Part shown: positions 3,010 through 15,472 of the stretch, piece after piece
Position numbering within the stretch: the stretch's first letter is position 1
Layout of the letters: each line of letters starts with the position of its first letter
Source: Bacteroidota bacterium
GTDB taxonomy: Bacteria; Bacteroidota; Bacteroidia; Chitinophagales; Saprospiraceae
DNA length: 64,000 nt
Assembly: GCA_029557915.1 (NCBI GenBank)
Contig: JAKQHS010000157.1
Span: forward strand, 1-64,000
Direction: 5' to 3'
Notes under the pieces: generated by a model
Told to the model about the DNA's origin: nothing
The model's database searches: none
What the model saw: the letters and a program-made list of their open reading frames with translations, nothing else
Translations under genes and position numbers: made by a program

Positions 3010-3048
3010 ACCAGGGGCTCGTTTTTTATTTCAAATCCACTGCTGTTT

Positions 3049-5322
3049 ATGAAATTCCAATGCTCTGTGCACGGCTTGAGATCTTCGATCTTTCACCTGT
3101 ATTTTGGTAAAATCGGGTTGCCGTTGATAAGTTTTCTATTGCCGGTTCTGGGGTTTGCAGCCGGGGCAAAAATCGTACGCTACGACTTATTCATCACGGA
3201 TACCCTGGTCAACTATAGCGGCAAAACGAGGAAGGCCATCGCCGTCAACGGAACCATCCCAATGCCCACTCTTGAATTTACCGAAGGGGACAGCGCGGTC
3301 ATTTATGTCCACAACCGGCTCAAAGAAGAAACCTCCATTCACTGGCACGGCCTGATCCTGCCTAACCAATATGACGGAGTACCTTATCTCACAACCCGTC
3401 CGATACTGCCCGGACAAAGCCACCTCTATACCTTCAGGCTGATACAAAACGGCACTTACTGGTACCACAGTCATACCAAACTCCAGGAACAAAGTGGCAT
3501 GTACGGGGCCTTTATCATCCGTAAAAAATCCGGGGACCCGACCTGGAGGGAGGAAGATCAAATACCGGATTATGCCCTGGTGCTCAGCGACTGGAGCGAT
3601 GAAAAGCCTTTTGAGGTTCACCGTAAACTGCATAATGCCACCGACTGGTATGCCATCAAAAAAGGTGCCACCCAGAGTTATGCCGAAGCCATCCGCGAAG
3701 GCCATTTCAAGACAAAACTGGTCAATGAATGGAAGCGGATGCTGGCCATGGACGTGAGTGATGTGTATTATGACCGTTTCCTGAGCAATGGGCAAGCGGA
3801 ATTGGAAGCTGCGGAATTTAAGGCCGGGGATAAAATCCGGCTCAGGATCATCAACGGGAGTTCTTCCACCTATTTCTGGCTGAACTATGCGGGAGGGAAA
3901 ATAACGATCATCGCAAACGATGGGCCGGATGTCGTACCGGTGGAGGTTGACCGGATGATCATTGCCGTCGCAGAAACTTATGATGTGGTCGTGACCGTTC
4001 CGGAATCAGGCCTTGCCCATGAGTTTTTAGCCACCTCCGAAGACCGGGTAAAATCGACCTCTCTCTGGTTGGGGAAGGGGACCAAACAACCGGCCACCCC
4101 CCTACCCCGGTTAAAATATTTCGAAGGCATGAAGATGATGAATGAGATGATGAAAATGAACGGTGACCTTGACGATATGGGCATGAATATGAGCCTGCAG
4201 CAAATGGATATGAATGTGGTCATGTACCCCGAAATCACTGGCCCGGGAAAGGACAGGAAAAAACAAGAGCATCAGCACGGCCAGCCGGAACAAAACCAAA
4301 ACGACGCCACGCCGGAAATCGTAACCCTTAATTATGCCCAGTTGCGCTCCCCGTTTAAAACAACACTGCCCCAGGCGCCTGTGAAAACCATGCGTTTTGA
4401 ATTGAGCGGCAACATGAACCGGTATGTCTGGAGTCTCGACAATAAAACAGTTTCGGAAACCGATAAAGTCCTCATCCGCAAAGGCGAAAACATCAGGATC
4501 ATCCTGTACAACGGGTCCATGATGCGCCATCCCATGCATTTGCACGGGCATTTTTTCAGGTTGTTGAACGGTCAGGGCGATTATGCACCCCTTAAAAACG
4601 TAGTGGATATCTTTCCCATGGAAACCGATACCATTGAATTTGCAGCGACTGAAACCAATGATTGGTTTTTCCATTGCCATATTTTATATCATATGATGAG
4701 CGGTATGGGCAGAATATTCAGTTATGAAGATTCTCCGCCCAATCCCGAGATTCCCGACCCTGCCGCCTCTCTCAAAAAATTGTATCGCGACGACCGGGAG
4801 TTTCATTTTATGTTTCAAAATGATTTTGCCAGCAACGGCAATGACGGGGAAATGATGTTGCAAAACACCCGATGGAGCCTGGGAGCGGAATGGCGCCTGG
4901 GTTACCACGACGACCACGGCTACGAAACGGAAACCCACATCGGCCGGTATCTCGGAAAAATGCAATGGCTAATGCCTTACCTGGGTTTTGACTGGAGATA
5001 CCGGAAGTCGGATGAACGTGAAAAAAACTGGTTTGGCCAGGTCAATACCAAAGATCAGCGTGGAGCTTTATGTCTTGGCCTCCGGTACACGCTTCCCCTG
5101 CTTTTCAAGGCCGATGCCCGTGTTGATATGGACGGCAGGCTCCGCCTTCAGCTCATGAGGGAAGATATTCCCTTAAGTAAAAGATTCAGAATGGCCCTGA
5201 TGTACAATTCGGACCGGGAATATATGGCCGGCCTGCAGTATATATTGACTAAAAACCTGGCTTTGTCCACTCATTATGACAAGGATATGGGTTGGGGTGC
5301 CGGGATTACTATGACTTATTGA
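3049..5322 (+). CDS. multicopper oxidase (CopA/CueO type) with C-terminal barrel-like extension
   Basis: The 757-residue protein has an N-terminal signal region and cupredoxin domains carrying all copper-ligand motifs: HWHG (98-101), HSH (140-142), HPMHLHGH (494-501) and HCHxxxHxxxxM (542-553). Between them lies a methionine-rich stretch at about residues 360-395, similar in kind to the Cu(I)-binding segments of CueO and CopA. It is followed by a His/Gln-rich linker. Residues from about 575 to the end leave the oxidase fold. They look like alternating amphipathic strands rich in Tyr, Trp and Arg, as in outer-membrane barrels such as CopB. The predicted role is oxidation of periplasmic Cu(I), with the tail possibly anchoring the enzyme at the outer membrane. 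Confidence 0.9.
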   Translation: MKFQCSVHGLRSSIFHLYFGKIGLPLISFLLPVLGFAAGAKIVRYDLFITDTLVNYSGKTRKAIAVNGTIPMPTLEFTEGDSAVIYVHNRLKEETSIHWHGLILPNQYDGVPYLTTRPILPGQSHLYTFRLIQNGTYWYHSHTKLQEQSGMYGAFIIRKKSGDPTWREEDQIPDYALVLSDWSDEKPFEVHRKLHNATDWYAIKKGATQSYAEAIREGHFKTKLVNEWKRMLAMDVSDVYYDRFLSNGQAELEAAEFKAGDKIRLRIINGSSSTYFWLNYAGGKITIIANDGPDVVPVEVDRMIIAVAETYDVVVTVPESGLAHEFLATSEDRVKSTSLWLGKGTKQPATPLPRLKYFEGMKMMNEMMKMNGDLDDMGMNMSLQQMDMNVVMYPEITGPGKDRKKQEHQHGQPEQNQNDATPEIVTLNYAQLRSPFKTTLPQAPVKTMRFELSGNMNRYVWSLDNKTVSETDKVLIRKGENIRIILYNGSMMRHPMHLHGHFFRLLNGQGDYAPLKNVVDIFPMETDTIEFAATETNDWFFHCHILYHMMSGMGRIFSYEDSPPNPEIPDPAASLKKLYRDDREFHFMFQNDFASNGNDGEMMLQNTRWSLGAEWRLGYHDDHGYETETHIGRYLGKMQWLMPYLGFDWRYRKSDEREKNWFGQVNTKDQRGALCLGLRYTLPLLFKADARVDMDGRLRLQLMREDIPLSKRFRMALMYNSDREYMAGLQYILTKNLALSTHYDKDMGWGAGITMTY

Positions 5323-5352: not shown

Positions 5353-5766
5353 ATGAAAAAGACATCGAATTATTTACACAGTGTATTATTCTGTGCAAGC
5401 AGCCTGTTATTGGTTATTCAAAGTTGTTCTTCTACTCAAAAAGGGGAAGTTACTGCTAAAATCGCTTCTTCATCGAAAGAATACTCGGTCATCAACACGG
5501 GAGAATCCATACTGCTGTACAAGTACATGCATAAGGCACATTCGGCCAAGGAGGTGGATAAATATGCTCCTAAATATTATTTCACCACCGCATCGTCAGA
5601 TGTGCTGAAGGATCTGACTAAAGAAAACCTGAAAAAAGCCTTTCCAACCAACCATGCTTTTCACAATGCCCTGGATGCTCATTTTAATTCCGATGCAGAG
5701 CTTATAAATTACGATACTTTCCATAAAATGTATAAGCTGAACTGGCTTTTAAAAAACAATCCGTAA
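5353..5766 (+). CDS. small lipoprotein of unknown function in copper cluster
   Basis: The 137-residue protein has a signal peptide with a likely lipobox ending at Cys in the string VIQSCSS, so it is probably a lipoprotein. The C-terminal half has a conserved-looking pattern (LTKENLKKAFP, then a FHNALDAHF segment and a YDTFHKMYKLN segment), which I have the impression of seeing in other small Bacteroidota proteins but cannot attach to a named domain. It lies 30 nt after the oxidase and 92 nt before the pump gene, on the same strand. No function is proposed. Confidence 0.7.
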   Translation: MKKTSNYLHSVLFCASSLLLVIQSCSSTQKGEVTAKIASSSKEYSVINTGESILLYKYMHKAHSAKEVDKYAPKYYFTTASSDVLKDLTKENLKKAFPTNHAFHNALDAHFNSDAELINYDTFHKMYKLNWLLKNNP

Positions 5767-5858: not shown

Positions 5859-7124
5859 ATGATTGATAAACTCATAGAAGGCGCGCTCCGAAACCGGATC
5901 ATCGTCTTGCTTGTTGCCGCCATCATCGCGGCCTATGGATTTTATTCGGTCAGAACCACCCCGGTGGATGCCATTCCGGATCTTTCTGAAAACCAGGTGA
6001 TCATTTTCACAGAATGGATGGGACGGGGACCCCAGATCATGGAGGACCAGGTAACCTATCCGTTGGTCAGCAACCTACAGGGCTTGCCTAAAGTCAAAAA
6101 CATCAGGGCCAACAGCATGTTCGGGATGAGTTTCGTTTTTGTAATCTTTGAAGACCAGGTCGATATTTATTGGGCCAGAACCCGGGTATTGGAGAGATTA
6201 AATTCAGCCCAACAACTCTTGCCCAAAGGGGTGGTTCCCACGCTGGGGCCCGATGGAACCGGCCTGGGCCATGTTTATTGGTACACCCTGGATGCGCCAG
6301 GGCATGATCTGGGCGAACTTCGTGCCTTGCAGGATTGGTACATCCGATTTGCTTTGCAAACCGTGGAGGGGGTGAGTGAAGTGGCTTCCTTCGGAGGCTT
6401 TCAAAAACAATATCAGGTCGTGGTAAATCCATTGAAACTCCAGTATTACAGGATTCCGATAATGGATGTTGTCCGCGCCCTGGAAGCAAACAATAAAGAT
6501 GTCGGCGGACGAAAATTCGAACAGGCGGATATGGGCTATATCATCCGGGGTCTGGGTTATATACAGAACATCAAACAAGTTGAAGACATCGCGGTAACCC
6601 ATATCAATTCCATTCCGGTCAGGATAAAGGACCTTGCAGATGTTCAAATGGGGGGTGAATTGAGACTGGGTATAGTCGAGGAAAATGGAGAAGGAGAAAA
6701 AGTCGGGGGGATCGTGGTGATGCGGTATGGAGAAAATGCAAACGATGTGATTGCCCGGTTAAAATCACGCATGCAGGAAGTCGAAAAAGGATTACCCCAG
6801 GGGATTCGGTTCAAAATGGCTTACGATCGTTCGGAGTTGATTCAGGCGACCATCGCAACCTTGAAGGAGGCGGTGCTGGAAGAAATCCTGGTCGTCTCCC
6901 TGGTACTGTTTGTCTTTCTGCTCCATCTGCGCAGCGCATTGATTGTGGTGATCACCATTCCTATGTCTGTCCTGATCGCCTTCATCCTGATGAAGTGGTT
7001 TGGCATTACTTCCAACATCATGTCTCTGGCAGGTGTAGCCCTTGCCGTCGGGGACTTGGTCGATGCCGGAATCGTCATGGTTGAAAATACCATGAAATCA
7101 TTAAGCGGAGAATTAGAACAATAA
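5859..7124 (+). CDS. cusA: CusA/CzcA heavy-metal RND pump, N-terminal part (split gene)
   Basis: These 421 residues align with the first 40% of CusA/CzcA pumps (full length about 1040): TM1, the first periplasmic porter domain and TM2-TM4. The TM4 motif GDLVDAGIVMVEN is intact, including the Asp of the proton relay. The frame ends shortly after TM4, within the cytoplasmic loop, at TAA (7122-7124). The next frame starts with an ATG sharing the last A of that stop (TAATG). No residues seem to be missing between the halves: a -1 shift at the junction would give a loop of normal length. This is either a natural split gene with coupled translation, a recent frameshift, or an assembly error. Confidence 0.85.
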   Translation: MIDKLIEGALRNRIIVLLVAAIIAAYGFYSVRTTPVDAIPDLSENQVIIFTEWMGRGPQIMEDQVTYPLVSNLQGLPKVKNIRANSMFGMSFVFVIFEDQVDIYWARTRVLERLNSAQQLLPKGVVPTLGPDGTGLGHVYWYTLDAPGHDLGELRALQDWYIRFALQTVEGVSEVASFGGFQKQYQVVVNPLKLQYYRIPIMDVVRALEANNKDVGGRKFEQADMGYIIRGLGYIQNIKQVEDIAVTHINSIPVRIKDLADVQMGGELRLGIVEENGEGEKVGGIVVMRYGENANDVIARLKSRMQEVEKGLPQGIRFKMAYDRSELIQATIATLKEAVLEEILVVSLVLFVFLLHLRSALIVVITIPMSVLIAFILMKWFGITSNIMSLAGVALAVGDLVDAGIVMVENTMKSLSGELEQ

Positions 7125-9019
7125 TGTCTATGCTGGATCCAAAAGAACGGATGCGACGGGTAGAGGAATCTTCCAAGCTGATAGCGAAAGCAGTAGTCAG
7201 TTCAATACTGGTGACCCTGGTTTCATTTAGCCCGATTTTGTTTTTATCCGGTCAGGAACATAAACTGTTTTCCCCCCTGGTTTGGACAAAAACATTTGCC
7301 ATGGCCGGGTCGGCCCTGGTCGCCGTCTTCCTCGTGCCGGTCCTGATGGTCGTCCTGTTGAAAGGAAAGGTGTATTCAGAAAACAAGCATCCCATATCCC
7401 GTTTTATTATCTCTTTGTACTCACCCGTGATTCGCTGGTGCCTGAAATGGAAAAAACTAACGCTGTTTTTCTGTATCGCCCTGGTCGCGGGCAGCATCCC
7501 TTACCTATTAAGACTCGGCCGTGAATTTATGCCCCCTCTGGACGAGGGCTCTCTTCTGTTCATGCCCGTCACCTTACCGGACATCTCCAATGCGGAGATA
7601 AAACGGATCATGCAGGTCCAGGATAAACTCATGCTCACGGTGCCGGAAGTACAAAACGTCCTGGGAAAAGCCGGAAGAGCCAGCACGGCAACGGATAATG
7701 CTCCGATTTCCATGATTGAAACGATTGTCCTTTTAAAACCCCAGGCGCTGTGGCGAAAAGGAATCACTAAAAATGACATCATCAATGAATTGAACGCAAA
7801 ACTGCAAATACCCGGGGTCATCAATGGCTGGACTCAACCCATCATCAACCGCATAAATATGCTTTCCACCGGAATCCGCACAGATGTAGGAATAAAAATT
7901 TTCGGCCAGCACCTCGATTCCATAAACCAATTGGCCCAATTGTTTAAAAAAACCCTGGAAGGCCTCGATGGAGTTAAAGATCTGTATGTGGAACCCATCA
8001 TCGGAGGCAAATATCTGGATATCCGGATCAAACGCGAAGAATTGGGCAAGTACGGTCTGACTATCGACGATGTCAACATGTTCATTGAAAGTGCCCTGGG
8101 TGGTATGACGCTGTCTCAAACGGTTGAAGGCCGCCAGCGCTTTTCAATTAACCTGCGCCTGGGTCAGGATTTCCGGAATTCCATTGAAAAAATGAAACAA
8201 ATACCGGTAATGACCATGGATTTTGGCCCAGTCCCGCTTGGAACCTTAGCGGATATAGAACTCACGGAAGGCCCTCCCATGATTGCCTCCGAAAACGCCA
8301 TGTTGCGGGGAACACTGTTGTTCAATGTCAGAGGCAGGGACCTTGGAAGTACGGTTGACGAAGCCAAAAACAAATTGGCAGAGGCCATGAATAAGCTTCC
8401 CAAAGGATATTTCCTTCAGTGGAGCGGGCAATATGAAAATCAAATCCGTGCTGAACAAAGGCTGAAACTAATAATGCCTGTCGTATTGGCCATTATTTGC
8501 ATCATTTTGTATTTTACTTTCCGGTCCTTCAGGGAAGTGCTCGTCGTATTATCCGCCATTCCGGTTGCGCTGGTGGGCGGGGTTTATTCCCTTTATTATT
8601 TTGACATTAATTTTTCCGTTGCCGTTGCTGTCGGTTTCATCGCCCTGTTTGGGATTGCCGTTGAAACAGGGGTGCTGATGCTGGTGTATCTCAACCATTC
8701 CTGGGAGAAAAAAATAAAGACTTTCCGTGAACAAAATCTTAAACTCAACCCCCATGCCCTGGAAGAGGCCATCTACGACGGCGCCGTATTGCGGGTCAGG
8801 CCCAAATTGATGACGGTCATTGTGGATATCCTGGGTTTGTTGCCCGTCTTGTTGGCAACGGGAACCGGAAGTGATGTCATGAAACCCATTGCCTACCCCT
8901 TTGTATTTGGATTGATCACTTCCACTTTGTTTGTTTTGATCGTCTTGCCGGTCCTGTATGCGTTGATCCGAAATGCCGATTTGAAAAAAGATCTTCAGGA
9001 ACCTGAAGATTTAACCTAA
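7124..9019 (+). CDS. cusA: CusA/CzcA heavy-metal RND pump, C-terminal part (split gene)
   Basis: The 631 residues cover TM5 to TM12 and the second porter domain. Recognisable blocks are the post-TM4 loop, FLSGQEHKLFSPL, GREFMPPLDEGSLL, MLSTGIRTDVGIKIFG and the TM segment FGIAVETGVLMLVYL, which keeps the relay Glu. Of the three methionines that line the copper path of E. coli CusA, the first two appear kept (PISMIET, INMLSTG). The third position seems to be Leu (KYGLTIDD), by mental alignment only. The start ATG overlaps the stop of the N-terminal half, which allows translational coupling. Both halves must assemble for a working trimeric pump. Confidence 0.85.
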   Translation: MSMLDPKERMRRVEESSKLIAKAVVSSILVTLVSFSPILFLSGQEHKLFSPLVWTKTFAMAGSALVAVFLVPVLMVVLLKGKVYSENKHPISRFIISLYSPVIRWCLKWKKLTLFFCIALVAGSIPYLLRLGREFMPPLDEGSLLFMPVTLPDISNAEIKRIMQVQDKLMLTVPEVQNVLGKAGRASTATDNAPISMIETIVLLKPQALWRKGITKNDIINELNAKLQIPGVINGWTQPIINRINMLSTGIRTDVGIKIFGQHLDSINQLAQLFKKTLEGLDGVKDLYVEPIIGGKYLDIRIKREELGKYGLTIDDVNMFIESALGGMTLSQTVEGRQRFSINLRLGQDFRNSIEKMKQIPVMTMDFGPVPLGTLADIELTEGPPMIASENAMLRGTLLFNVRGRDLGSTVDEAKNKLAEAMNKLPKGYFLQWSGQYENQIRAEQRLKLIMPVVLAIICIILYFTFRSFREVLVVLSAIPVALVGGVYSLYYFDINFSVAVAVGFIALFGIAVETGVLMLVYLNHSWEKKIKTFREQNLKLNPHALEEAIYDGAVLRVRPKLMTVIVDILGLLPVLLATGTGSDVMKPIAYPFVFGLITSTLFVLIVLPVLYALIRNADLKKDLQEPEDLT

Positions 9020-9041: not shown

Positions 9042-10310
9042 ATGCAGCTTCTCATGAAAACCCGTTTAACCCTCATTCCTGTACTGAGTTTCCTCTTCCT
9101 TCGGGCTCTTTCAGCCCAGGAAATATACACCCTGGATCGGATCCTGGATTCCATTCGTCAAAATCACCCGGTTGTAAAAATGTACACCCGCGAGATCAGA
9201 TCCATGGATGAAGCGGCTGAAGGGGCCCGCAGTTGGATGCCTCCACAGTTTGCCATCGGGTCATTTATGACCCCCTACAACATCAATCGATGGAGCAGGG
9301 AAGGAGAAATGACCGGGATGGGATCCATCATGATTTCAGGCGAACAAATGTTGCCCAATAAAAAGAAACTGGATGCAGAGGAACGATATATGAAGGCCAT
9401 GTCCTCTGCAGAATATGACCAAAGAAACAACGTGTTGCATGAATTGGTACACGACGCCAAAAGTTTATTTTTTGAAACCATGATTTTAAATAAAAAACTC
9501 GCCGTGCTTGGTTCAAACCGGCAGATCCTTGAATTCATGGTGCAGAATGCAGAAAGCCGCTATCAATTCGGATTGGGCAAAATCGGAGCCTATTACAAAG
9601 CCAAAGCAGCCCTGGGCAATCTTAAAAACATGCAATGGATGATTGAAAGCGAGATCCGGGATAAACACTTCCGCATCAATACGCTGATGGGCCGAAATCC
9701 CACCATACCCTTGGAATTAGACACTTTGTTTCATTTGAATGATTTTAGTCTTTGGGTTTTTGACCAGGCCCTTTTCTTTTCCAACCGTTCCGATATCAGA
9801 GCGCTGGACCAACGCATTCGCCTGAACTGGCTTCGGCAGGATGCGGAGAAGCAGACCCTCAGACCCCAGTTTGGCCTTCGTTATGAACATATGTTTGGAT
9901 TCGGGGGCCAGCCCCTTTTATTTAACCTTATGGGCATGGTCAGCATTCCAATGGTAAAATGGTCTTCCAAAATGACCCGCGCTAATATAGAAAGTCTCAA
10001 ATGGCAGGCCATGTCTTATGAAGCCAAAAAAGAAATGCTGGCGAACGAATACAGCGGGATGGCCTATGCCATGCGCAATGAGTTGCAACTTAAAATCAGG
10101 CAACTGTCGGGATATGAAGAAACGATTATTCCGGCTCTGAAAAACAATTTACAAACCATGCAATTGGGTTACGAACAAAATACCGAGGAACTATTCATGT
10201 TGTACGACGCCTGGGAAGCCCTAAATATGAAGCAACTGGAATACTTCGATTTGTTAAACCAAGCCCTCCGGTCTCAGGTTGAACTGGAACGGTTAATACA
10301 ACAAAAATGA
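9042..10310 (+). CDS. TolC-family outer-membrane efflux channel (CusC-like)
   Basis: The 422-residue protein has a signal peptide ending after ALSAQ. Two long helical, coiled-coil-like repeats rich in Gln, Glu, Lys and Ala are typical of TolC/CusC channels. An alternative start at 9054 (MKTRLTL) gives a cleaner signal peptide. It follows the pump gene by 22 nt and overlaps the next gene by 4 nt (ATGA), so it is co-transcribed with its partners. It should form the outer-membrane exit duct of the tripartite metal pump. Confidence 0.85.
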   Translation: MQLLMKTRLTLIPVLSFLFLRALSAQEIYTLDRILDSIRQNHPVVKMYTREIRSMDEAAEGARSWMPPQFAIGSFMTPYNINRWSREGEMTGMGSIMISGEQMLPNKKKLDAEERYMKAMSSAEYDQRNNVLHELVHDAKSLFFETMILNKKLAVLGSNRQILEFMVQNAESRYQFGLGKIGAYYKAKAALGNLKNMQWMIESEIRDKHFRINTLMGRNPTIPLELDTLFHLNDFSLWVFDQALFFSNRSDIRALDQRIRLNWLRQDAEKQTLRPQFGLRYEHMFGFGGQPLLFNLMGMVSIPMVKWSSKMTRANIESLKWQAMSYEAKKEMLANEYSGMAYAMRNELQLKIRQLSGYEETIIPALKNNLQTMQLGYEQNTEELFMLYDAWEALNMKQLEYFDLLNQALRSQVELERLIQQK

Positions 10311-11662
10311 AAATTTTAAAAGGCTGTCTTTTTCTGTTCGTCATGCTGCATGTTATAGCCTGCAAGCTTCAGCCAGATCGACCTTCGGTTCAGGAAATTC
10401 CGCTAACCTATACTTGTCCCATGCCGGAGGATTCCTTCTATAGCCCGGAGCCCGGGCAATGTCCCAAATGCGGAATGGACCTGGTGCAAACAAACTTTGC
10501 TCTGCATAAAGGTCATCCGCCCGTCTTCACTTGTCCTATGCATCCTGAAATCATGGAGGATGAACCCGGCAGTTGTCCGATCTGCAATATGAAACTGGTG
10601 CAAAAAAATCAAACCGAACAAGATCCTTCCATTCCACGTTTGGAAGATTTGTTAAAACCCACTCATGAATTCATCATTTCGACAGTCCGGGATACTACCC
10701 TTCTAAAAAAGGAAGTCTCCCTGATTGGAGAAGCTACCGGCGTGATTGACTACGATACCCGGGAAGTGTACCGGATTTCATCCAATACAGAAGGCCGTAT
10801 AGAAAAATTATATATCCGGTATAGGTTCCAGAAAATCCATGAAGGACAGCGGATCATGGATGTCTACAGCCCCGAGCTGGTCACTGCTCAACAAAATCTG
10901 CTTTTTAACTTGCGGCAGGATCCGGACAATGAAAGTTTGGTCCGTGCGGCAAAACAAAAATTAATCCTGTTGGGAATGCAAACATCCCAGATGGAAGAAG
11001 TCATCAAGTCAGGTGAACCCTCCCTTACCGTTGGCGTGTACAGCAAACGAAACGGTTACGTCATCGAAACCGAAAGGATGGAGGGCCGGTCAGAGGGCGC
11101 GATGGCCAATAAAGAGGGGGAGGAGGAGCCCTTAACCCTGAAAGAAGGGATGTATGTCCAAAAAGGCCAGCCTGTGTTGAGTGTTTACGATCCCAAACGT
11201 ACATGGGCTATAATTAATATCCACGGAGAAAACCAGGGATGGATTAAAATAGGAAATGAGGCCATCCTCCGGGCAGAAACCTCACCTCAAACCATCCTCC
11301 GCGGAAAAATCAATTTTATAGAACCCTTTTACCAGAAGGGAAGTAAAACCCTTACCGCCAGGATCTATTTGGACCATCGTTACGGGCAATTGCCCATTGG
11401 CAGTCGCATAACTGCAAAAATCACAGGGCCTTCAAAAACCTCTTACTGGTTACCTAAATCAGCAGTACTCTCCTCGGGCCTCCAGAAAGTGGTTTTTCTT
11501 AAAAAAGAAGGCGGCTTTAAAGCTATTCCGGTGCAGACCGGTTTAGTAATGGAGGACCTGGTTGAATTCAAGGATGGTCTTTCGATACATGACCGGTTCG
11601 CCATAAATGCCCAGTACTTATTGGACAGCGAGAGTTTCATCACCGTCAAAAACAAGCCATGA
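10307..11662 (+). CDS. CusB-type periplasmic adaptor with two heavy-metal-binding ribbons
   Basis: This 451-residue membrane-fusion protein is a predicted lipoprotein (lipobox ending at Cys19). Two tandem heavy-metal-binding domains follow. The first has TCPMPEDS then CPKCGMDL (residues 36-59); the second has TCPMHPEI then CPICNMKL (75-98). The body shows the barrel-sandwich and beta-barrel regions of CusB-like adaptors, with a helical hairpin around residues 200-260. It overlaps both the TolC gene and the second adaptor gene by ATGA, so the three are coupled. It links the RND pump to the channel and probably delivers or senses metal. Confidence 0.88.
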   Translation: MKILKGCLFLFVMLHVIACKLQPDRPSVQEIPLTYTCPMPEDSFYSPEPGQCPKCGMDLVQTNFALHKGHPPVFTCPMHPEIMEDEPGSCPICNMKLVQKNQTEQDPSIPRLEDLLKPTHEFIISTVRDTTLLKKEVSLIGEATGVIDYDTREVYRISSNTEGRIEKLYIRYRFQKIHEGQRIMDVYSPELVTAQQNLLFNLRQDPDNESLVRAAKQKLILLGMQTSQMEEVIKSGEPSLTVGVYSKRNGYVIETERMEGRSEGAMANKEGEEEPLTLKEGMYVQKGQPVLSVYDPKRTWAIINIHGENQGWIKIGNEAILRAETSPQTILRGKINFIEPFYQKGSKTLTARIYLDHRYGQLPIGSRITAKITGPSKTSYWLPKSAVLSSGLQKVVFLKKEGGFKAIPVQTGLVMEDLVEFKDGLSIHDRFAINAQYLLDSESFITVKNKP

Positions 11663-12855
11663 AATCCCTTATTTTTTCCGTAATCCTTCTTTTCCTGCTG
11701 GCCTGTAACCAAAAAACCGGGCCCGTGAAAGACCCCGAGCTTTATTATACCTGTTCCATGGATCCTCAGGTCGTGGAATACAAACCTGGAAAATGTCCAA
11801 TATGTAAAATGGAATTGACCCCGGTAAAAATCAGCAAGGGGAACCGCCGGGATGAATTGGAACTCAGTGACCAGCAAATCCTCCTGGGTAATATTCAAAC
11901 CGATACGCTGGCAACCTCCAGGATCGGTAAAAAGATATTATTAAACGCAACATTGAATTTTGACCAAAGAAAAATCAATTCAGTCAGTTCAAGGATCATG
12001 GGCAGAATTGAAAAGCTGTATTATAAAAATCTGGGAGACTATGTGGTGTCCGGAAAACCATTGTACGAACTTTACAGCGAAGAACTGAATACCGCCAGAC
12101 TCGAATATCTCCAGGCCCTTGAAAATAAAAACACCTACCCGAAGGACGGCCAGATAAACATGGATCACCTGATTCAGAATGCAAAAAACAAATTGATTCT
12201 TTGGGGCATGAGTGAACGTCAAATTTCAGAATGGACGATTTTATCAAACCCCCTGGCGACGACCTTCCTCAGTCCATCCAGCGGATATATTACCGAACTC
12301 AACGTGCTGGAAGGGGATTACGCCATGGCTGGAAGCCTGATCGTCAAATTGGCTGACCTCTCCACCTTGTGGGCTGAAGCGCAAATATATTCCTCGCAAA
12401 TGGCTGATGTGAATTTGAAGAGCAAAGCCTTAGTCCGCTTCCCCGATTTATACAACAGGGATGTTTCCGGAACTATTGAGTTCATGACTCCGGAGCTCAA
12501 AGCAGACAGTCGTATCCTTCTGCTGCGCGTATCCATTCCCAATCCGGATCATACTTTGAAACCCGGCATGCAGGCCCAGATCTTGCTCACAAGCCCCCTG
12601 GATCAGGTCCTGACCTTACCCCTGGAGGCGGTGCTTAAAGACAGCAGGGGTTCTACGGTCTGGGTTCGAAGTGGAAAAAATAAATTCAGACCCCGAATGG
12701 TGCAGGAAGGCCGGGAATCTGAAGGTAATCTGGAAATTCTGTCCGGAATAGCTCCCGGAGAAGAAGTGGTGACCCGGGGCGCCTATTTATTAAACAGTGA
12801 ATACCTTTTCAAAAAAGGAGCGGATCCCATGGCTTCGCACACTCACGACCAATAA
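11659..12855 (+). CDS. second CusB-type periplasmic adaptor with one heavy-metal-binding ribbon
   Basis: The 398-residue protein is a lipoprotein with Cys16 as the likely anchor. One heavy-metal-binding domain (TCSMDPQV then CPICKMEL, residues 31-53) precedes a full adaptor body: a biotinyl-lipoyl-like half (MGRIEKLY), a helical hairpin and the C-terminal barrel. It starts within the stop of the first adaptor (ATGA overlap). The two adaptors differ in length and in ribbon number, so they are paralogues rather than a recent duplicate. A mixed adaptor ring on the pump is possible, as in systems with two non-identical partners, but that is inference. Confidence 0.88.
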   Translation: MKSLIFSVILLFLLACNQKTGPVKDPELYYTCSMDPQVVEYKPGKCPICKMELTPVKISKGNRRDELELSDQQILLGNIQTDTLATSRIGKKILLNATLNFDQRKINSVSSRIMGRIEKLYYKNLGDYVVSGKPLYELYSEELNTARLEYLQALENKNTYPKDGQINMDHLIQNAKNKLILWGMSERQISEWTILSNPLATTFLSPSSGYITELNVLEGDYAMAGSLIVKLADLSTLWAEAQIYSSQMADVNLKSKALVRFPDLYNRDVSGTIEFMTPELKADSRILLLRVSIPNPDHTLKPGMQAQILLTSPLDQVLTLPLEAVLKDSRGSTVWVRSGKNKFRPRMVQEGRESEGNLEILSGIAPGEEVVTRGAYLLNSEYLFKKGADPMASHTHDQ

Positions 12856-13432: not shown

Positions 13433-15472
13433 ATGGAACATAAACACCACCATCAACCGCTTCATCAAGAAACCCCTCCGGTCCACGGCAATCCCAATCC
13501 ACCCATGGGTCATGCCGGCCACGACCACCATTCCATGATGATGGACGATTTCAAAAAACGTGCCTGGGCCGTCCTTCTGCTGACCCTGCCCATCCTGCTC
13601 TTGTCGGAAATGATCCAGCACTGGCTGGGTTTCCATTTGGTTTTTGCAGGCTCAAAAGGTTTGCTCTGGTTATTATCTTCTGTAGTGTTTTTTTATGGAG
13701 GCTGGCCTTTTTTGAGGGGATGGCTTGATGAAATGAAATCCTGGCAGCCCGGGATGATGACCCTGATCGGTTTTGCCATCACGGTAGCCTACATCTATTC
13801 CTCCGCCACGGTGCTGGGTTTACAAGGGATGGATTTTTTCTGGGAACTGGCCACCCTTATCCTGATCATGCTCCTGGGCCATTGGATAGAAATGAAATCG
13901 GTGGCCGGGGCGTCCAGGGAACTGGACTTGCTGGTCCGGCTGATGCCGGATGATGCCCATCTGGTGCACGGAAACCATATCATGGAGGTCCAAACCACCA
14001 GTCTCAAAACAAACGATATCATTCTCGTCAAACCCGGTGAAAAAGTTGCTGCCGACGGCCTGATTACGGAAGGGGAAACGTATGTGGATGAATCCATGCT
14101 CACCGGGGAATCCCGACCCGTAGCCAAAAAGCACGGAGACCAGGTCATTGCAGGATCTATCAATGGAAACGGGGCGATAAAAATCAGGGTATCGCACGGG
14201 GCAAAGGACTCTTACCTGGCCCGGGTGGTCAAACTGGTACAGGATGCCCGGCAATCCAAATCAAAAACCCAATTGCTGGCCGATCGTGCAGCGCGCTGGC
14301 TCACCCTGATCGCCATCGCCGCGGGGCTGATCACTTTTGCGGTATGGTATTTCTCAGGAAACGGCCTTGCTTTTGCCATGGAAAGGATGGTCACCGTGAT
14401 TGTGATTTGTTGTCCCCACGCGCTGGGCCTTGCCGTACCTCTGGTGGTGGCCAAATCCACCGCCCTTTCCGCAAAACATGGTTTATTGATTAAAAACCGG
14501 ACGGCCTTTGAAAACGCGCGAAAAATAAGCACCCTGGTTTTTGATAAAACGGGAACCCTGACCCTGGGCCGATTCGAAGTTTCACGTGTGGTGCCTGTGC
14601 TCCCGGAGTTAAACGAGTATGAATTAATCCGTCTGGCCGCAGCCCTCGAACAAAATTCAGAGCATCCGATTGCTTCCGGCATCATGGACAAAGCCAAAAG
14701 CATGGGCATCCCTGTGCCGTCGGTACAAAAGTTTAATGCCATCACGGGCAAAGGCATCGAAGCCCACGTGGAAGGAAAAGACATCAAAGTGGTAAGCCCG
14801 GGTTACCTTAAGGAAAATCAAATTCCTTTTCCCCCGGATTATACCGCAGATTTGAGCGAGACCGTGGTATTTGTCCTGGGAGGGGATGAAGTATCCGGTT
14901 TTATTTCACTTTCCGATACCCTTCGTCCGGAGTCTGCCGGCGCCATCCGGGACCTGCGCCGGGAAAACATAAAACCCGTTTTGCTGACCGGGGACCGCCT
15001 CGAGGTCGCTGCCGCCATTGCCCAAACCCTGAATATGGAACACTATTTTGCAGAAGTATTACCGCATCAAAAACTCGACAAAATCAAAGAACTTCAGCAG
15101 GAGGGGGAATTTGTGGCGATGACGGGAGATGGGGTCAATGATGCCCCTGCGCTTGCCCAGGCCCAGGTCGGTATTGCAGTCGGTTCGGGTTCTGATATTG
15201 CTGCTGAAACGGCGGACATCATCCTCGTCAACAGCAATCCCGCGGATGTGGTCTCCCTGATCCGTTTTGGCAAAGCCACCTACCGGAAAATGATTCAAAA
15301 CCTGGTCTGGGCAACGGGGTATAATATTGTCGCCCTGCCATTGGCTGCAGGGATCCTGTATCCCCAGGGATTCTTATTGAGTCCCGCAGCCGGTGCGGTA
15401 TTGATGAGCCTGAGCACGGTAATCGTGGCCATCAACGCGGGCATGCTCAAAATAAAGGGAAGGCAACCTTAA
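13433..15472 (+). CDS. copB: copper-translocating P1B-type ATPase, CopB (CPH) subtype
   Basis: The 679-residue P-type ATPase has a His/Met-rich N-terminus (residues 1-40) instead of HMA domains. All core motifs are present: TGES (224-227), membrane metal site CPH (327-329), phosphorylation motif DKTGTLT from Asp371, and GDGVND (565-570). The CPH motif marks the CopB/P1B-3 subgroup, which exports copper, and in some cases silver, from the cytosol to the periplasm. The gene lies 3 nt after the DUF2911 gene and closes the copper cluster. Its cargo would be taken over by the oxidase and the RND pump encoded upstream. Confidence 0.92.
   Translation: MEHKHHHQPLHQETPPVHGNPNPPMGHAGHDHHSMMMDDFKKRAWAVLLLTLPILLLSEMIQHWLGFHLVFAGSKGLLWLLSSVVFFYGGWPFLRGWLDEMKSWQPGMMTLIGFAITVAYIYSSATVLGLQGMDFFWELATLILIMLLGHWIEMKSVAGASRELDLLVRLMPDDAHLVHGNHIMEVQTTSLKTNDIILVKPGEKVAADGLITEGETYVDESMLTGESRPVAKKHGDQVIAGSINGNGAIKIRVSHGAKDSYLARVVKLVQDARQSKSKTQLLADRAARWLTLIAIAAGLITFAVWYFSGNGLAFAMERMVTVIVICCPHALGLAVPLVVAKSTALSAKHGLLIKNRTAFENARKISTLVFDKTGTLTLGRFEVSRVVPVLPELNEYELIRLAAALEQNSEHPIASGIMDKAKSMGIPVPSVQKFNAITGKGIEAHVEGKDIKVVSPGYLKENQIPFPPDYTADLSETVVFVLGGDEVSGFISLSDTLRPESAGAIRDLRRENIKPVLLTGDRLEVAAAIAQTLNMEHYFAEVLPHQKLDKIKELQQEGEFVAMTGDGVNDAPALAQAQVGIAVGSGSDIAAETADIILVNSNPADVVSLIRFGKATYRKMIQNLVWATGYNIVALPLAAGILYPQGFLLSPAAGAVLMSLSTVIVAINAGMLKIKGRQP

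Follow-up and report, generated by a model that had tools for sequence, protein, structure and literature searches.

To our knowledge, efflux permeases of the RND superfamily are treated as single chains of 12 transmembrane helices (TM), and a pump of the CusA type is one 12-helix protein in other bacteria. The pump investigated here has in common with E. coli CusA (CusCBA; HME-RND, TIGR00914; PDB 3k07 and 3ne5) the methionine triad, the Asp/Glu/Lys relay, the partner genes and the copper context. Unlike CusA, which is one chain, it consists of 421 and 631 aa encoded by two genes, and it has two different CusB-like adaptor genes.

Within the RND superfamily the known two-chain precedent is SecD/SecF, a 12-TM unit whose two chains may also be fused, as SecDF is in T. 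thermophilus (PMC8277102). The pump described here resembles them in that an RND-type 12-TM unit is made as two chains. However, SecD and SecF are cut 6+6 at the pseudo-repeat boundary, between TM6 and TM7, and are no efflux pump, whereas here the break comes after TM4 and divides a tripartite metal pump 4+8, inside the first repeat. The MdtBC heterotrimer is an RND pump of two gene products (PMC8277102), yet MdtB and MdtC are full-length paralogues, whereas the halves described here are parts of one protomer. The NolGHI RND pump, formerly under three gene names, is a single gene according to the same review (PMC8277102), in contrast to the present split, which is conserved and real. None of the open-access papers searched describes an efflux RND permease that is split, whether 4+8 or otherwise. 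ExsFGH was checked and proved to be ordinary, and no RND cluster is mentioned in the main text of the GeneTack paper on frame transitions.

In the stretch of DNA analysed (the window, 64,000 nucleotides), the pump is encoded on the forward strand by two open reading frames, 5859..7124 (421 aa) and 7124..9019 (631 aa), which meet at a TAATG (7122..7126) where the stop of the first and the start of the second overlap by one base. The second frame is open from 7085 onward. Of the 1051 positions of the TIGR00914 CusA/CzcA profile, the N-half covers 1-422 and the C-half 431-1043, with scores of 469.9 and 624.4 bits; the whole-protein cut-off of 701.45 is exceeded only by both together. Against E. 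coli CusA (45% identity) the halves align to residues 1-418 and 429 onward, and only a loop is absent. Transmembrane helices, assigned from this alignment and the established RND topology, place TM1, the first periplasmic domain and TM2-TM4 in the N-chain, and TM5-TM12 with the second periplasmic domain in the C-chain. The break is thus in the cytoplasmic TM4-TM5 loop, past the relay Asp, between CusA residues 418 and 429. The residues of the CusA proton relay, D405, E939 and K984, correspond to D402 of the N-chain and to E514 and K561 of the C-chain, and the relay is complete across the two chains. The copper-binding methionines of the Cu/Ag type (CusA M573, M623 and M672) are all in the C-chain, as M147, M197 and M246. 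Read one after the other, the two reading frames make up a single RND copper pump of the CusA type. Coordinates and alignment confirm what the first-pass annotation of this DNA had read from the letters, namely a pump in two frames joined at TAATG in the TM4-TM5 loop, with the relay Asp and Glu both kept on separate chains. Sequence and residues place the pump in the CusA/CzcA HME family, and it would work as CusA does; members of this family are, however, single 12-TM polypeptides of about 1040 aa; the window, and the whole clade to which its pump belongs, has two genes instead, and we therefore class this pump as a two-chain variant of the family and not as an ordinary member.

The partner genes expected of the family are found downstream of the C-half and are kept in most relatives. 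A TolC/CusC-like outer membrane factor (OMF, 9042..10310, forward strand) has a weak match to TIGR01844, follows the C-half in most relatives and is annotated as a 'TolC family protein' in plasmid relatives. It is followed on the same strand by two CusB-like adaptors, MFP1 (10307..11662) and MFP2 (11659..12855), both identified by profile matches and synteny. The commonest order in relatives is N-half, C-half, OMF, MFP1, MFP2. Also on the forward strand of the window are a CopA-type multicopper oxidase (3049..5322), so named from a best match to TIGR01480 that is under the curated cut-off, and a copper-translocating P-type ATPase (13433..15472; TIGR01511, 595 bits, over the cut-off). In relatives the split pump genes often adjoin genes for a copper ATPase, a multicopper oxidase or DUF3347. 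Both tandem adaptors (10307-12855) start with Cys-Pro-x-Cys heavy-metal-binding motifs, and the pair is kept in most relatives. Immediately upstream of the N-half, 5353-5766 is a lipoprotein-like open reading frame of 137 aa with no Pfam match, which has relatives at the equivalent position in three other loci (L111, L112 and L121).

Is the division of this pump peculiar to the window genome? Or, is it shared by related pumps? In 150 same-family genomes, the six closest homologues (64-67% identical) comprise five that are split at this loop and one that is intact. When 84,980 species genomes were scanned and the best 80 loci, in named genomes, were taken, 77 were split and three intact, a proportion that does not allow the arrangement to be put down to chance. 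The N-half precedes the C-half in 74 of the split loci; two are permuted and one meets the end of its contig just past the start of the C-half. Of the matches in 395 genomes from the phylum, each of the top 28 (>714 bits) has an open frame of 423-475 aa, and among the matches listed under 714 bits nearly all are intact. The pair is present as two adjacent RefSeq genes, each its own coding sequence (CDS), on finished plasmids, namely pHALHY01 of Haliscomenobacter hydrossis, pRUNSL02 of Runella slithyformis, and plasmids of Pontibacter, Adhaeribacter, Hymenobacter and Mucilaginibacter; genomes of one to three contigs show this split too. Public annotation lists the halves as two genes, each an 'efflux RND transporter permease subunit'.

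In a tree of 104 concatenated proteins (maximum likelihood, quick search, LG+G4, SH-aLRT support), all split pumps fall in one clade with a support of 100, which includes 75 split and four intact rows. The sister group is intact. It contains the closest single-chain relatives, pumps of approximately 1045-1145 aa from the same phylum and from plasmid pPRO1 of Pelobacter propionicus, which are 57-60% identical in the N-half and are encoded by one uninterrupted gene, in contrast to the split of the window clade. Parsimony on this tree requires four changes: the gene was split once and re-fused three times (L057; L084 with L099; L043). The number was also four in an earlier tree built with a different set of outgroups. 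Members of the clade belong to the Chitinophagaceae, Saprospiraceae, Cyclobacteriaceae, Hymenobacteraceae, Spirosomataceae, Flavobacteriaceae, Sphingobacteriaceae and others; the tree is one of genes, and horizontal transfer is likely, some copies being on plasmids. The comparison shows one cut of a single-chain ancestor, in the cytoplasmic TM4-TM5 loop, after which strong purifying selection has kept both genes across the Bacteroidota, with few re-fusions. Two re-fused copies have a loop of 19 residues; the junction tails of the split pumps, with medians of 16 and 26 residues, add up to more than this, which is what a TM4-TM5 loop tolerant of chain ends would lead one to expect.

In some lineages the halves are no longer next to one another. 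The most telling case is the permuted order C-half, OMF, MFP1, MFP2, N-half, found in two loci, L165 (genome G353) and L166 (G540, which is also the genome of L120). In these the C-half has its own start codon, and its end is separated by 3.6 and 4.3 kb from the N-half downstream. In L116, the contig of which begins inside the OMF gene, the order is OMF, MFP1, MFP2 and lastly the N-half. These three form one lineage, with a support of 100, nested inside the split clade. With this gene order a single polypeptide is impossible, and the chains of the permuted lineage are made as separate proteins; we infer the same for the other split pumps. In L156 a complete gene (3042-3737, in reverse complement coordinates), which reads as a putative SAM-dependent methyltransferase, is located between the halves, and in L117 two small open reading frames of 140 and 96 aa with no Pfam match are found there (11315-12031). 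The halves of the second pump of L157 are approximately 200 nt apart, with no obvious gene between.

Several explanations other than a two-chain pump could be offered for the break. The window genome is a draft of 209 contigs and the two frames are one base apart, as might be left by a recent frameshift mutation, making the locus a pseudogene, or by an error of sequencing or assembly. The relatives rule this out and we give it next to no credence, since 77 of the 80 closest loci, finished plasmids and one- to three-contig genomes have the same split, purifying selection on both halves is strong, and the nearest relative, L047, is split at a different junction, in frame with an ATG 9 nt after the stop. 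The split is, on this comparison of loci, a real two-part pump and neither a broken gene nor a sequencing error. A programmed -1 frameshift or read-through of the stop would yield the pump in full length, on its own or together with the halves, and in the window there is indeed a stretch of 40 nt (7085..7124, forward strand), the only one, in which both frames are open together. However, this overlap has no X_XXY_YYZ slippery heptamer, and instead of the conserved slippery site and fixed -1 relation of a programmed -1 frameshift, all three frame relations are found among 76 relatives, the second frame being 0 relative to the first in 12, +1 in 26 and +2 in 38. Where genes intervene or the order is reversed, as in several lineages, a fusion product is impossible. 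Programmed frameshifting is rejected on these grounds; minor read-through is compatible with the sequence data, and we regard a full-length product by either route as very improbable. Of the possibilities raised in the first-pass annotation, the simple frameshift mutation or assembly error is accordingly refuted and the regulated -1 frameshift giving both forms is not upheld, while the two-chain RND pump is strongly supported by a split that is clade-wide, with halves separated or reversed in some lineages. The same annotation had proposed comparing the junction in close relatives, where intact genes throughout would have spoken against two chains; most of them are split too. It had also read TAATG as consistent with translational coupling. 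This is plausible in the window, but it is not a conserved feature: the ATG nearest to the first stop is from -14 to +58 nt away (between -14 and +15 in 74 of 75 relatives), and the -1 spacing of the window TAATG is present in four of 75 as well.

It might also be that one half alone is functional, in an altered role, and that the other is a relic. In general, a split gene may keep one of its parts as a relic, although nothing of the kind was seen here. Where the synonymous sites of a pair are unsaturated, omega is 0.009-0.05 for the N-half and the C-half alike, and in the permuted lineage nonsynonymous change is far under synonymous change (pN 0.045 against pS 0.71 for the N-halves of L116 and L166). 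Pairwise distances of the N- and C-halves are correlated over 77 loci with r = 0.957; for the pump halves against the OMF and adaptors r is 0.68-0.78, values which may be lowered by paralogue matches. The halves being equally constrained and coevolving, the relay residues being divided between the chains, and re-fusion occurring inside the split clade all argue against a relic. We found no split locus with one half lost, apparent losses being contig ends or permuted order, and we hold this explanation to be very improbable. For L120 and L154 the C-half was located upstream in the same operon, L118 is cut short by the end of its contig, and in L116 the N-half comes last, matching the permuted order. 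What may be a second split RND, in G093:C2, and a match in a same-genus genome (G024:C185) were set aside, both being at contig ends. As an addition to the two-chain explanation, the split may permit unequal amounts of the chains, or an exchange in which an N-chain pairs with the C-chain of another split pump in its genome, giving hybrid RND pumps of mixed character. Genomes with more than one split pump would provide the opportunity, and there are two such pumps in G406 and three each in G398 and G293, those of G293 being on a single contig; the agreement of N and C distances (r = 0.957) suggests instead that each N-chain keeps its own C-chain, and we think such hybrids unlikely. The three split CusA pumps of L157 (G293:C8) and L158 are within about 36 kb of one contig and are candidates for it.

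We consider it highly probable that the locus encodes an ancient, stable and functional two-subunit CusA, the chains of which come from separate genes and are assembled non-covalently. That the chains assemble together is suggested by the retained residues, selection and coevolution. Where the genes are adjacent, termination-reinitiation or coupling may let a ribosome that ends the N-chain start the C-chain. The chains, of 4 and 8 TM, would insert separately, each with its two termini in the cytoplasm, and join into one 12-TM protomer, three of which (three N-chains and three C-chains) would make up the CusA trimer. The proton relay would be completed between the two chains, and the trimer, docked with the two adaptors and the OMF, is predicted to use the proton gradient for the export of Cu(I)/Ag(I). 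For the chains modelled singly, AlphaFold gives pLDDT values of 60.9 and 69.7, a low to modest confidence, and the best PDB matches of these models are CusA structures, with an rmsd of about 10 A; such models support the family only and say nothing on assembly.

An RND protomer can thus be cut inside its first repeat, with the relay Asp on one chain and Glu and Lys on the other, and the cut protomer can persist across a phylum, even with its genes apart and reversed. This provides a natural two-part pump for the study of membrane-protein assembly and RND coupling. It is also a warning to annotators that split CusA genes are not frameshifted pseudogenes. On plasmid pSLIN02 of Spirosoma linguale, the split pump locus (L131, 1524-4845) has no listed gene; the locus tag Slin_6876 is absent from the table, possibly because it was handled as a pseudogene. 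In Hymenobacter sp. HDW8 (L130), the C-half is listed as two short CDS past a gap and is matched by tblastn in three pieces, and is perhaps a degraded or mis-sequenced copy.
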